64,000 nt of DNA from Cyanobacteria bacterium FACHB-502. Its GTDB lineage: Bacteria > Cyanobacteriota > Cyanobacteriia > Elainellales > Elainellaceae. A model generated the notes under the pieces. That model was not told where the DNA came from and did not search any database. It saw only the letters and a program-made list of their open reading frames with translations. Of the stretch, positions 3,383-54,718 are shown one piece after another (within the stretch, counting starts at the first letter, position 1; the number at the start of each line of letters is the position of its first letter). The stretch spans positions 124,001-188,000 of the forward strand of contig JACJNZ010000048.1 in NCBI GenBank assembly GCA_014695325.1, read 5' to 3'. The translations under genes were made by a program, and so were the position numbers.

Positions 3383-4783
3383 CTAATCCGGGATTGAAAC
3401 AGGTGCGGCTGTAATTCCTTTTGCTTCTAACATCGCTGCTGCTCTTAAGAGCAGAGCCTCTTGATAGGGAGCAGCAATTATTTGCACTCCGACGGGAAGC
3501 TGATCAGGGCGGTGAATGGGAACCGAGAGAATCGGTAGCCCAATAAAGGAAAGCGGCTGTGTGTAGAGTCCTAGATTTGGACGAACTAGCATTTCAACCC
3601 CGTCTAAAACCATTTTCTCTTGACCAATCAGGGGTGCAGCGCAGGGCGTAGTCGGCGCAAGAATTAAATCGACCTCTTGAAAAATTTCCCTTACCTGATC
3701 GCGATACCAGCGGCGAAATCGCTGTGCCTGGAGATACCAGGTGTTTGAAATCATTGCTCCTGCTAAAAATCGATCGCGTGTTGCCGGATCAAAGTCCTGC
3801 GGGCAAGTTTTCAGGCGGGGTAAATGCAGGTTGCTTCCCTCAGAAGCCGTAATCACGTAAGCGGCAGCTCTGGCTCGCTGTGCTTCAGGAATTGCGACTT
3901 GCTGAGTTGCCGAAAGAGCCTCAGCCACCTGAGCCACAGCAGCAAAGACTTCGGGTTCACCACCCTGAGCGAAATAGCCGTCTGCGATAGCAATGCGTAA
4001 GCCGTCAATGCCGCGATCGAGCTGAGGCAGACAAGCCTGGGGAGGACGCAGCGTACAAACAGGATCGGTGGGGTCTGCGCCCTGCATTAGGTCAAATGCC
4101 GCTGCAATATCTCGAACCGATCGCCCAAAGGGTCCAATATGGTCAAAGCTGCTGGCAAACAGAAAAACGCCTGCGCGGGACAGTCTACCGTAGGTCGGCT
4201 TTAGCCCGTAGATGCCGCAAAATGCCGCAGGAACGCGAATTGAGCCATTGGTATCGGAACCTAGCGTGAGCGGAACCAGTCCGGCAGCAACCGCAGCCGC
4301 AGATCCCCCAGAGGAGCCTCCAGCAACCCGGCGCAGATCATGGGGGTTGTGCGTTGCACCATAATGACTATTTTCCGTTACAAAGCCATAGGCATATTCA
4401 TCCATATTGAGTGTGCCCAACAGGATTGCCCCTGCCCGTCGTAATGCCGCTACTGCATTGGCATCCTGGCTTGCCACAGGACGATTTCGATTAATTTTTG
4501 AGCCTGCCAGGGTCGGCAGCCCGGCGACATCAAACAGATTTTTGACGGCAAAAGGGACACCCGCCAGCACTCCAGGGTCTCCCCCGTTGGCAATTGCCCG
4601 ATCGATCGCGTCGGCATCGGCTAATGCTTGATCTGTCAGGACTTGTGTAAAACTGTTGAGCTTGCTGTCCTGCGCGGCAATCTGGGCGAGGGCTGCTTCT
4701 GTTACTGTCCGGGCTGAAACAGTTTCCGATCGCACGGCATCAGCGATCGTCAGCGCATCGGCTTGCTGAAACTCAAACGTCAT
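3383..4783 (-). CDS. atzE: Amidase-signature hydrolase, AtzE-like
   Basis: This 466-residue amidase-signature enzyme has the Ser-cisSer-Lys machinery in order: Lys81 in VPFAVKNLFD, the GGSSGGS loop at 155-161, and the nucleophile Ser181 in SDTNGSIRVPA. The family includes GatA, allophanate hydrolase and AtzE. AtzE (1-carboxybiuret amidohydrolase) needs the small partner AtzG, and a small AtzG-like gene lies immediately upstream with an ATGA overlap, which is the main reason for the AtzE call. No GatB or GatC lies nearby, so a tRNA amidotransferase role is unlikely. If the call is right, the enzyme removes ammonia from carboxybiuret or a related small amide, feeding allophanate and urea nitrogen metabolism. 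The true substrate is not shown by sequence. The gene symbol rests on the pairing and should be treated as provisional. Confidence 0.75.
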   Translation of the reverse strand: MTFEFQQADALTIADAVRSETVSARTVTEAALAQIAAQDSKLNSFTQVLTDQALADADAIDRAIANGGDPGVLAGVPFAVKNLFDVAGLPTLAGSKINRNRPVASQDANAVAALRRAGAILLGTLNMDEYAYGFVTENSHYGATHNPHDLRRVAGGSSGGSAAAVAAGLVPLTLGSDTNGSIRVPAAFCGIYGLKPTYGRLSRAGVFLFASSFDHIGPFGRSVRDIAAAFDLMQGADPTDPVCTLRPPQACLPQLDRGIDGLRIAIADGYFAQGGEPEVFAAVAQVAEALSATQQVAIPEAQRARAAAYVITASEGSNLHLPRLKTCPQDFDPATRDRFLAGAMISNTWYLQAQRFRRWYRDQVREIFQEVDLILAPTTPCAAPLIGQEKMVLDGVEMLVRPNLGLYTQPLSFIGLPILSVPIHRPDQLPVGVQIIAAPYQEALLLRAAAMLEAKGITAAPVSIPD

Positions 4784-51346: not shown

Positions 51347-51699
51347 CGATCGGCTAGATAGACACAAGGAATGCTCATACCTAAAGGCGGCTAACCTTAG
51401 AGCGGCTAATTTTTAAGCAGCTTACTTTGGATTCTTGCCTGAATTTTCCCAGCACACCGATATAGAATCATTTCCACCAAACTATACAGAGAGCCAGCCT
51501 TTTCTAAGTTCAAAATGGAAAGGTAAGGCTGGTCGGGTGGAGTTGATGCTTCACGATTTATAGGAGTTTCTATTTTTAGAATTCCTGGTTAAATCAGAGC
51601 AATATCACTCGGTCGAGAGATGATTTTTTGAACTTTTGAGGTTGGGAAATGGTTGGTTTTCAAGCACTTTTGGGTTTATGTTAAGCGATGTAACAATAA
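51347..51699. other. Leader region before the RHH-Ycf46 block
   Basis: About 350 bases without a gene. The operator and promoter follow at 51700-51751. Confidence 0.45.
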
Positions 51700-51715
51700 T
51701 GCTGTCATGACAGCA
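51700..51715. promoter_or_regulatory. Perfect 16-bp palindrome, likely operator
   Basis: TGCTGTCATGACAGCA reads the same on both strands. A further half-site (TTGACAG at 51723-51729) coincides with the -35 box, eight bases away. The next gene encodes a ribbon-helix-helix-like protein, so autoregulation is plausible. Confidence 0.65.
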
Positions 51716-51722
51716 AGCCGTC

Positions 51723-51751
51723 TTGACAGTACCTGTTTTGCCGTTTATCGT
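51723..51751 (+). promoter_or_regulatory. Promoter of the RHH-like gene
   Basis: TTGACA (51723-51728, exact consensus) and TATCGT (51746-51751) are 17 bases apart. Transcription would begin near 51758, about 30 bases before the ATG. Confidence 0.6.
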
Positions 51752-51789
51752 GTCATACATACCCGGGTATTCAATAAATAGTCGTTGTT

Positions 51790-52134
51790 ATGCAAGACAA
51801 GCACAAAGTTACGCTATACCTTCCTCCAGACCTGCACCGCCAGCTCAAAATTCGTTCCGCAGTTGAATTAGAGCCGATGTCCACAATCGCAGAGCGTGCA
51901 ATTGTTTTCTATCTCACTCATTCTGAAGTAGTTGATGAGGTAGAAGCAGCTCACGGGCAAACTCACCGGGTTTACAGTTGCCCCGAATGTGCAAGTTTGC
52001 TCGTTCTGAAAGAGGGAGAGATGGCGGCTCTGAGCGGTCAAGCGGAGATTCCGTTAGACGAAGAAGCATCGGTAGAGCGACTTCCAAAGGGTTCTCCCGA
52101 TCAGCGAGGCGAGGGCGAACTGGTTCCCTGCTAG
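51790..52134 (+). CDS. Ribbon-helix-helix-like protein with CxxC motif
   Basis: This is a 114-residue protein. Residues 4-50 (HKVTLYLPPDLHRQLKIRSAVELEPMSTIAERAIVFYL) fit the CopG/Arc ribbon-helix-helix DNA-binding fold: one beta strand and two helices. A Cys-Pro-Glu-Cys pair follows (about residues 59-62), suggesting a half zinc-ribbon, and the protein ends in a Cys. The last 30 residues are acidic. It lies behind a strong promoter and a perfect palindrome and before ycf46. It is probably a repressor of its own operon. The zinc idea and target are inference. I do not know a name for it. Confidence 0.75.
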   Translation: MQDKHKVTLYLPPDLHRQLKIRSAVELEPMSTIAERAIVFYLTHSEVVDEVEAAHGQTHRVYSCPECASLLVLKEGEMAALSGQAEIPLDEEASVERLPKGSPDQRGEGELVPC

Positions 52135-52271
52135 GTTCTTCTTGTTATTAAAAGTTTGCTTGCTTCAGTAGTTTTGATTTGAACGTGAAATTGTCTTTTT
52201 CAGCGTTGGACTTCTGTTACCCAGTTTGGCAGTTGTCTACTCCTGACATCTGCACCGTCTCTTAATAGGTC

Positions 52272-53825
52272 ATGGTTATGAAAGAAGAACTTAATATTCT
52301 AGTTCAGGCTCAATATCCTCTGATCTACCTCGTCACGTCTGAGGAGGAGCGGGCAGAGCAAGCAATTTCATCGCTGGTGCAGACAAAGCCATCTCGAAGA
52401 ATTTTTGTCTGGACGATGACTCACGGAATTGTTGAGTATGGTCAACCCAGAAATGTTACTCAGCACAATACCGTTGCTCCTGAAGCGGCGATCGAGTGGG
52501 TAGTACGTCAAAAGGAACCCGGTCTCTACGTCTTTAAAGATTTGCACCCGTTCCTTGATTCGCCTGGTGTCACGCGCTGGCTGCGAGATGCGATCGCGAG
52601 CTTCAAGGATGCCCAGAAGACAATTATTCTCATGTCTCCAGTACAGACTGTGCCGATTGAGCTAGAAAAAGAGGTGGTGGTGGTAGATTATGCCCTGCCT
52701 TCTCTGGAAGAGCTGAATCAAGTACTCACTCATCAACTAGACCAAATTCAGCGTGAGCAGCGTGAGCGGGCTCGCCTGGGTCGCCCTGACCCGACTCGGA
52801 TTTCGACCGAAGCGCGTGAGAAGCTGCTGAAAGCAACGCTGGGTTTAACTCGCGATGAAGCTGAAAAAGTCTATCGCAAGGCATATGTAATGTCTGGGCG
52901 GTTGACGGAGACTGAAGTAGATATCGTTTTAACTGAGAAGAAGCAGCTTATCCGTCGCAATGGCATTCTGGAGTACATCGAAGAAGATGAAACCCTAGAT
53001 GCGGTTGGCGGACTAGAGGAGCTAAAGCACTGGTTGCGCCAGCGATCGAACGCCTTTACCGAGCGGGCAAGAGAGTACGGATTGCCTCAGCCAAAAGGGA
53101 TGCTGATTCTGGGTGTTCCGGGCTGTGGAAAGTCGCTCATTGCAAAAACAACTTCCCGCCTCTGGGGTCTGCCGCTGCTGCGGTTAGATATGGGACGAGT
53201 TTACGATGGCTCAATGGTGGGTCGATCAGAAGCAAATTTGAGAAATGCGCTAAAAACGGCTGAGTCAATCTCCCCAGCGATTCTGTTCATTGATGAAATT
53301 GACAAAGCGTTTGCAGGTAGTGCAGGGTCAGCGGATTCTGATGGAGGTACTTCCAGCCGGATCTTTGGTTCTTTCCTGACCTGGATGCAGGAAAAGTCAT
53401 CGCCTGTATTTGTAATGGCAACGGCAAACCGGGTTGAGCGTTTGCCTGGAGAATTCCTCAGAAAAGGACGATTTGACGAAATTTTCTTCGTTGATCTGCC
53501 GAACAATGAGGAGCGCAAAGAGATTTTCAAGATTCACCTGTCCAAGCGTCGGCGCGATATTAGCCGCTTTGACCTGGATCAACTGGTGAAGGTTTGCGAA
53601 GGGTTTTCAGGTGCGGAGATTGAGCAGGCACTTGTTGCTGCAATGTACGAAGCATTTGCCCAGGATAGGGAATTCACCCAACTGGACATTATTGCAGCGA
53701 TTCGAGCCACGATGCCGCTCTCCAAGACCATGAGTGAGCAGGTGACTGCCCTGAGAGATTGGGCAGGACAAAGAGCAAGACCTGCTGCTTCTTCAGTTGC
53801 TGAATATCAGCGGCTGGAGTTCTAA
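52272..53825 (+). CDS. ycf46: AAA ATPase, Ycf46 family
   Basis: This is a 517-residue soluble AAA protein. The N-terminal domain (about 1-235) is family-specific (ELNILVQAQYPLIYLVTSEEERAEQAISSLV). The ATPase module has Walker A LGVPGCGKSLIAKT (about 280-293), Walker B AILFIDEIDKAFAG, sensor VFVMATANRVERLPGEFLRKGRFDEIFFVDLP with two arginine fingers, and a C-terminal helical lid. Ycf46 is conserved in cyanobacteria and red-algal plastids and has been linked to stress and inorganic-carbon responses. Its remodelling substrate is unknown. A second ATG (52278) nine bases after AGG may be the true start. Ycf35 follows 165 bases later. Confidence 0.92.
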   Translation: MVMKEELNILVQAQYPLIYLVTSEEERAEQAISSLVQTKPSRRIFVWTMTHGIVEYGQPRNVTQHNTVAPEAAIEWVVRQKEPGLYVFKDLHPFLDSPGVTRWLRDAIASFKDAQKTIILMSPVQTVPIELEKEVVVVDYALPSLEELNQVLTHQLDQIQREQRERARLGRPDPTRISTEAREKLLKATLGLTRDEAEKVYRKAYVMSGRLTETEVDIVLTEKKQLIRRNGILEYIEEDETLDAVGGLEELKHWLRQRSNAFTERAREYGLPQPKGMLILGVPGCGKSLIAKTTSRLWGLPLLRLDMGRVYDGSMVGRSEANLRNALKTAESISPAILFIDEIDKAFAGSAGSADSDGGTSSRIFGSFLTWMQEKSSPVFVMATANRVERLPGEFLRKGRFDEIFFVDLPNNEERKEIFKIHLSKRRRDISRFDLDQLVKVCEGFSGAEIEQALVAAMYEAFAQDREFTQLDIIAAIRATMPLSKTMSEQVTALRDWAGQRARPAASSVAEYQRLEF

Positions 53826-53990
53826 CAAGCTTTCTCTCCTGGTTCCCAACAGGCGAGGAAAGGCTAGCAACAGAAGCTAGCAGTCTAGTCCAAAGAGCCG
53901 TATCCGTTGGCATTCCAACCGCTTAGCGATCGGCGTAAACACTTCCTAACGTTTGTCGTTTCTCTCAACTTCTCTACAGGAGGAAATCCA

Positions 53991-54341
53991 ATGTCTCACT
54001 TTAGCACTCTGCGTACCAAGATCACCGAATCTGAAATTTTGAAGTCCTCGCTGCGGGATCTGGGTATCTCCGTGAAGACGGAAGCTGATGTACGTGGCTA
54101 CAACGGTCAGCGCGTTCGTGCAGACATCGTTGCTGTTTTGGATGGCGAGTATGATCTGGGCTGGTCTCGCAATGCAGATGGTTCTTTTGACCTGATTGCT
54201 GATCTGTGGGGTGTTGCTAAGAAGCACAACCAGACCGAATTGATTAACTCGATCAACCAGAAGTATGCTGTAAACAAGACGCTGGCTGAAGTTAAGCGTC
54301 CTGGTCTGCAAAACGCTAACGTGAAGCTGGTTGTTCAGTAA
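53991..54341 (+). CDS. ycf35: Ycf35 / DUF1257 family protein
   Basis: This is a 116-residue soluble protein, start MSHFSTLRTKITESEILKSSL. The ATG at 53991 is set by an exact AGGAGG seven bases ahead (53978-53983), one of the strongest ribosome-binding sites in the window; the open frame before it does not look like coding. Conserved segments include VRADIVAVLDGEYDLGWSRNADGSFDLIADLWGV. The family occurs in cyanobacteria and red-algal plastids and its function is unknown. Placed behind ycf46 and followed by a terminator, it may be a partner of that ATPase. The strong site suggests it is made in larger amounts. Confidence 0.92.
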   Translation: MSHFSTLRTKITESEILKSSLRDLGISVKTEADVRGYNGQRVRADIVAVLDGEYDLGWSRNADGSFDLIADLWGVAKKHNQTELINSINQKYAVNKTLAEVKRPGLQNANVKLVVQ

Positions 54342-54379
54342 GTTTTATCAGCGTTCCCAATTCGGCGGGTTAATCCATT

Positions 54380-54399
54380 ACGGGTTAGCCCGTTTTTTG
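54380..54399 (+). terminator. Intrinsic terminator after ycf35
   Basis: ACGGG (54380-54384) pairs with CCCGT (54389-54393) over a four-base loop and is followed by six T. It lies 39 bases after the ycf35 stop. Confidence 0.75.
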
Positions 54400-54718
54400 C
54401 GATCGAACAAACGCTCTATTCAGAAACATTAAGCATCCTGCTAGGTGAAAGCTTTTCGGGAGCTGTAGGCGTACAATTTAATCAGCAAAAGCGCGGCAAA
54501 GAAGGCGTTCCTGATGGGGAAATTGTCCAAACACAATTCTCAAAGGTTGACAATGCAACAGATTTAGCTGCAAAGCCGGCAGGAAAAATTTGGGATAATT
54601 ATGCCTCCCTATCCTGGAGCAGTAATTGAATGAGCACAGCTCTTTTACTATAAAGAATGCAAAAAGAGGCAAAATATAATTCGCCTCTCGTTGAGATATT
54701 CGATGAAATTGAGCAGAA
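54400..54718. other. Gap holding a start-less protein-like frame
   Basis: A plus-strand frame with no ATG, GTG or TTG stays open through to a TGA at 54627-54629. It reads like protein near its end (GVQFNQQKRGKEGVPDGEI). It may be a gene remnant or chance. Nothing else is seen. Confidence 0.35.

Follow-up and report, generated by a model that had tools for sequence, protein, structure and literature searches.

A stress operon of Synechocystis consists of slr0373, slr0374 and slr0376. These genes are among those with the strongest blue-light induction in that cyanobacterium, and they rank as the top three of those classed as hypothetical or unknown. Inactivation of slr0374, whose product is named Ycf46 in the literature, reduces the activity of the carbonic anhydrase EcaB, and a published mutant ties this ATPase to the use of inorganic carbon. 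For the third gene, slr0376, a promoter of its own has been reported, and its mRNA is described as mainly monocistronic and as rising on depletion of RNase E or J. A 2009 comparison of model cyanobacteria had predicted an RNA element in the spacer between the ATPase and DUF1257 genes.

We analysed a 64 kb window (64,000 nucleotides of contig JACJNZ010000048.1 of Cyanobacteria bacterium FACHB-502; positions below are those of this whole stretch) and compared one block of it with that operon. The product of the first gene (ORF1) matches NCBIfam NF052617, the slr0373 family, with 156.6 bits against a curated cut-off of 100. Sequence comparison thus identifies the block as the orthologue of a known operon of another cyanobacterium, and the gene set is not new; as far as the Synechocystis operon is described in the papers examined, its three genes stand in the same order. 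The original prediction had pointed to a Synechocystis stress operon with a Ycf46-like gene, which the literature bears out, and every sequence item that it listed (palindrome, TTGACA promoter, ribbon-helix-helix-like and AAA reading frames, AGGAGG, terminator) is present in the window. What is newly delineated here is the predicted control region of the operon, which on alignment is conserved across cyanobacteria (Table 1). In the operon literature examined, which excludes the 2002 and 2015 primary reports, we found no account of this control region or its boxes, of a distinction between the slr0376 type and Ycf35, or of a link to the P-loop cysteine.

Table 1. Features of the block, with positions in the 64 kb window.
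Feature	Position	Strand	Sequence, basis or remarks
HLR1-like (RpaB-type) site, predicted	51677..51696	-	reverse strand TTGTTACATCGCTTAACATA, near KTTACAWW-N2-KTTACAWW
Predicted operator, three contiguous 8-bp boxes	51704..51727	+	GTCATGAC, AGCAAGCC, GTCTTGAC; consensus GTYWWRAC
Promoter	51723..51751	+	exact TTGACA (51723-51728), 17 bp, TATCGT; scan and conservation profile; kept as TTGACA / TAnnnT
Inverted repeat TACCC/GGGTA	51760..51769	+	TACCCGGGTA; close to predicted start site
slr0373-family protein (ORF1), 114 aa	51790..52134	+	RHH domain, then CPxC knuckle; NF052617, model, fold match
AAA ATPase, slr0374 (Ycf46-family) orthologue, 517 aa	52272..53825	+	PF00004; Walker A GVPGCGKS with Cys285
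Two tandem RNA hairpins directly after ATPase stop codon	53829..53883	+	consensus structure, 28 species
Strong Shine-Dalgarno AGGAGG	53978..53983	+	conserved as GGAGGAAA
DUF1257 protein, slr0376-type, 116 aa	53991..54341	+	PF06868; own clade
3' element: conserved GCGTTCCCAA, then intrinsic terminator	54351..54398	+	alignment and consensus fold, 34 species

The comparison set for promoter and cassette comprised 79 cyanobacteria, namely 78 fetched loci and the window. The order regulator, AAA ATPase, DUF1257 gene is identical in all 78 and in the window, so that the synteny anticipated for the three genes is conserved with no exception in the sample. The slr0373 family was also sought in 292 genomes of the phylum and exceeded the cut-off in 100; ORF1 and the cassette-type ATPase occur together in these 100 and no genome is discordant. 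Both are missing from the genomes of family f19 and from genome G095, in which a second, divergent ATPase is retained along with a DUF1257 gene. The cassette is retained or lost as one unit across the sample. Since cassette, promoter block, spacer hairpins and terminator are all conserved, the block stands above chance. A search for plasmid-borne relatives of ORF1 found none, and a reading of the block as a defence system was rejected, the PADLOC matches to IetA spanning the AAA domain only.

According to its model, ORF1 is a protein of the ribbon-helix-helix (RHH) fold, with a strand and two helices in the RHH arrangement, in agreement with the RHH-like first gene with cysteines that had been predicted. 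The model is confident over residues 1–50 and poor in the C-terminal part. Model and fold matching place residues 2–57 with RHH proteins, including PutA, CopG, Arc and NikR among the top structural matches (Z about 5–6), and sequence matches to CopG- and Arc-type proteins are weak. Five residues are invariant in 32 sequences: K6, T8 and Y10, on the presumed DNA-reading strand, and C64 and C67 of the CPxC motif.

Alignment of the promoters on the -35 hexamer reveals a sharp conservation edge about 46 bp upstream. Reading downstream, the elements are the minus-strand HLR1-like site, the three boxes, of which the third overlaps the -35 hexamer, the -10 element TAnnnT, and the TACCC/GGGTA repeat near the predicted start. 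The box array is self-similar at lags of 8 and 16 (permutation p 5e-5 for lag 8), and the lag-8 signal persists with the -35 hexamer excluded. The GTYWWRAC consensus was picked after inspection of the alignment; with a matrix made from box 1 alone, the registers of box 3 and box 2 rank next best among 115 offsets. Box 2 is weak, matching at 6/8 positions or better in 44 of 78 promoters, and the signal of box 3 is confounded with the -35 element. At 0–1 mismatch the array has a single site in its own genome, and a degenerate-pattern search of other genomes found a looser version almost only at the cassette promoter. These alignments and searches indicate an operator-like array that is conserved across the phylum and dedicated to the cassette promoter.

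The original prediction had placed the operator in a perfect 16-bp palindrome, TGCTGTCATGACAGCA, at 51700-51715. This palindrome straddles boxes 1 and 2, and its perfection is peculiar to this genome. A second perfect 16-bp palindrome lies at position 3439, and with two in 64 kb perfection alone is at chance level; genome-wide, the other two TGTCATGACA sites fall within a reading frame or on a start codon. The palindrome was therefore rejected as a stand-alone operator. What survives of the claim is an operator-like array dedicated to this promoter, of which the palindrome is just a part, the whole being longer, three boxes in extent and overlapping the -35 element. The arrangement resembles that of MetJ and other tandem-binding RHH repressors, in which an RHH fold is likewise combined with contiguous 8-bp pseudo-palindromic boxes. 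The met box is AGACGTCT, whereas the consensus here is GTYWWRAC, and ORF1 has no visible corepressor domain but a CPxC knuckle instead.

The HLR1 motif occurs within 2 mismatches in 62 of the 79 promoters, as against 6 of 790 shuffles, and a 10-bp repeat was detected in this part of the alignment. Its position, about -81 to -62 relative to a predicted, unmapped start, is mostly beyond the two published effect windows (an activating one from -66 to -45 and a repressing one from -38 to +23; PMC13421787, which is also the source of the consensus). The TACCC/GGGTA repeat is perfect in 62 of the 79 promoters, imperfect in 10 and absent from 7, with a centre of 0, 3 or 4 bp and a compensated form, TACCT..AGGTA, in three. 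In a promoter context it is found almost solely at the cassette promoter, and no known regulator matches it. Despite the 0 to 4 bp variation of its centre it holds its position between promoter and start codon; in family f12 (loci L042, L043, L051 and L066) it has been lost and the rest of the promoter kept. An RNA hairpin formed by TACCCGGGTA is not favoured because the arms are without a loop in most species.

The third gene had been taken for ycf35. It does encode a DUF1257 protein, as does the DUF2997-Ycf35-Fed7 operon described as ycf35 cluster g (PMC4284462), but the two proteins belong to different clades, and the Ycf35 of that operon has a longer C-terminus and a ferredoxin rather than an ATPase as neighbour. 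The true Ycf35 of this genome lies at G000 C23, between a DUF2997-like gene upstream and the ferredoxin gene (Fed7) downstream, neighbours that were recognised by sequence and order rather than by profile search. It is 36–38% identical to the window protein. Given this identity and a clade of its own, the label Ycf35 is unfit for the third cassette gene, which by these comparisons is a Ycf35 paralogue, not Ycf35. Its fold gives a good model with no clear structural relative, the best matches (Z about 6) being to unrelated families.

The cassette ATPase likewise forms a clade distinct from other copies. This genome has a second Ycf46-like ATPase, at G000 C34. The cassette proteins can thus be told apart from Ycf35 and from the second Ycf46-like copy, which is relevant for reading the plastid literature. 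Every one of the 79 cassette ATPases has a cysteine in its P-loop, whereas the 11 second copies that were sampled first all lack it. It is often present, too, in relatives from lineages outside the class, and its origin may therefore be unconnected with light. A 2026 PNAS proteome dataset gives the reduced fraction of the Slr0374 peptide 260–271, which contains Cys269, as 91.6% in light against 78.3% in dark; just 27 peptides, this one included, are listed there with a higher reduced fraction in light. Trypsin would release from the conserved P-loop the 12-residue peptide GMLILGVPGCGK, whose tenth residue is the cysteine; counted along peptide 260–271 this is position 269, and in 501-aa orthologues the P-loop cysteine is at 269. 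From this length and position we infer that Slr0374 Cys269 is the Walker-A cysteine, the PNAS text itself leaving the loop unmentioned. A shift of 13 points is modest, and most of the Cys269 pool therefore stays reduced. p97/VCP is likewise an AAA ATPase whose ATP-binding loop contains a cysteine, Cys522, and oxidation or modification of this pocket residue blocks its ATPase activity. In the cassette enzyme, which differs in being bacterial with a single AAA domain, a thiol switch at the Walker-A cysteine is plausible. The original prediction had the RHH protein sense a metal or redox change through its cysteines; the published redox evidence concerns the P-loop cysteine of the ATPase and not the RHH protein.

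Further conserved elements lie in the transcript. The spacer hairpins contain 17 pairs with compensatory change at 12 (28 species) and have no match in Rfam. The terminator stem found by scan spans 54380-54393, and comparison of species gives a longer conserved stem. In many species the motif TTCCCAA is present twice, once in the loop of the first of the spacer hairpins (53843-53849) and once ahead of the terminator (54354-54360).

Our favoured explanation, to which we give about an even chance, is that the RHH protein is an autorepressor acting on the boxes and thereby controls a pair formed by the AAA ATPase and the DUF1257 protein, with gating through the Walker-A cysteine and redox input from RpaB. 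RHH dimers would sit side by side on the three 8-bp boxes over the -35 element, in the manner of MetJ on tandem met boxes, and so repress the operon that encodes them, and RpaB at the upstream HLR1 would supply the photosynthetic redox signal. ATPase and DUF1257 protein would act as a pair, the DUF1257 message being made separately abundant through the hairpins of the spacer and the strong ribosome-binding site, in keeping with the mainly monocistronic slr0376 mRNA of Synechocystis and its rise on RNase depletion. The Walker-A cysteine would gate the ATPase: in light it would be reduced and ATP binding possible, whereas darkness or oxidative stress would oxidise the cysteine and prevent binding. 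DNA binding by the RHH protein at the boxes, the gating and the partnership are deduced steps. The assignment of the RHH protein to the boxes is a prediction, and the same promoter holds two more conserved elements, HLR1 and TACCC/GGGTA; the array and the inverted repeat might thus be sites of other regulators, with the RHH protein acting elsewhere or on TACCC/GGGTA. We consider this unlikely, as the near-uniqueness of the array to the cassette promoter fits a dedicated regulator and MetJ-like tandem binding by RHH dimers would call for just such a contiguous 8-bp register.

As Synechocystis slr0376 is reported mainly as a monocistronic mRNA, a single operator may fall short of controlling the block in full, and the promoter of its own reported for slr0376 counts against the favoured explanation. 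The separate transcript also suits a reading in which the ATPase and the DUF1257 protein share stress regulation alone, with no partnership between them, as do the facts that Ycf35 neighbours Fed7 rather than an ATPase and that, in this genome, Ycf35 and the second ATPase lie on different contigs. This seems improbable to us: the cassette pair is never split in 78 loci, and a third pair of AAA ATPase and DUF1257 genes, adjacent to each other in other genomes, belongs to a second, separate clade of both families, a recurrence that is the best support for the partnership and the reason for favouring it. A greater, though still doubtful, likelihood attaches to the view that CPxC is a structural metal site, the P-loop redox change a bystander effect and expression the sole means by which the cassette is controlled. 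The weak zinc-knuckle similarity of CPxC, the reactivity of P-loop thiols in other ATPases and the modest size of the Cys269 shift are in keeping with it; the small number of light-responsive peptides among which Cys269 is listed and the inhibitory modification of the equivalent cysteine in p97 speak against it and for the gated ATPase of our favoured explanation. An extended form of that explanation, in which the block would be a redox-gated remodelling unit that is self-regulated and inherited all-or-none, with a dedicated RHH repressor, MetJ-like boxes, a light-dependent Walker-A thiol switch and a DUF1257 adaptor, is put forward tentatively and is itself on the unlikely side. The analysis leaves three components of the operon open to experiment: a delimited candidate operator, one cysteine and a putative partner protein.

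Relatives of both downstream genes occur in phages. Near full-length Ycf46-like ATPase relatives (about 30–38% identity) are found in phages of Mycobacterium, Pseudomonas, Rhizobium and others. Among cyanophages, a DUF1257 gene of a Microcoleus phage is near the cassette type, and one of the Prochlorococcus phage P-SSM2 is near Ycf35 (loci L134 4001-4354 and L133 4001-4381).
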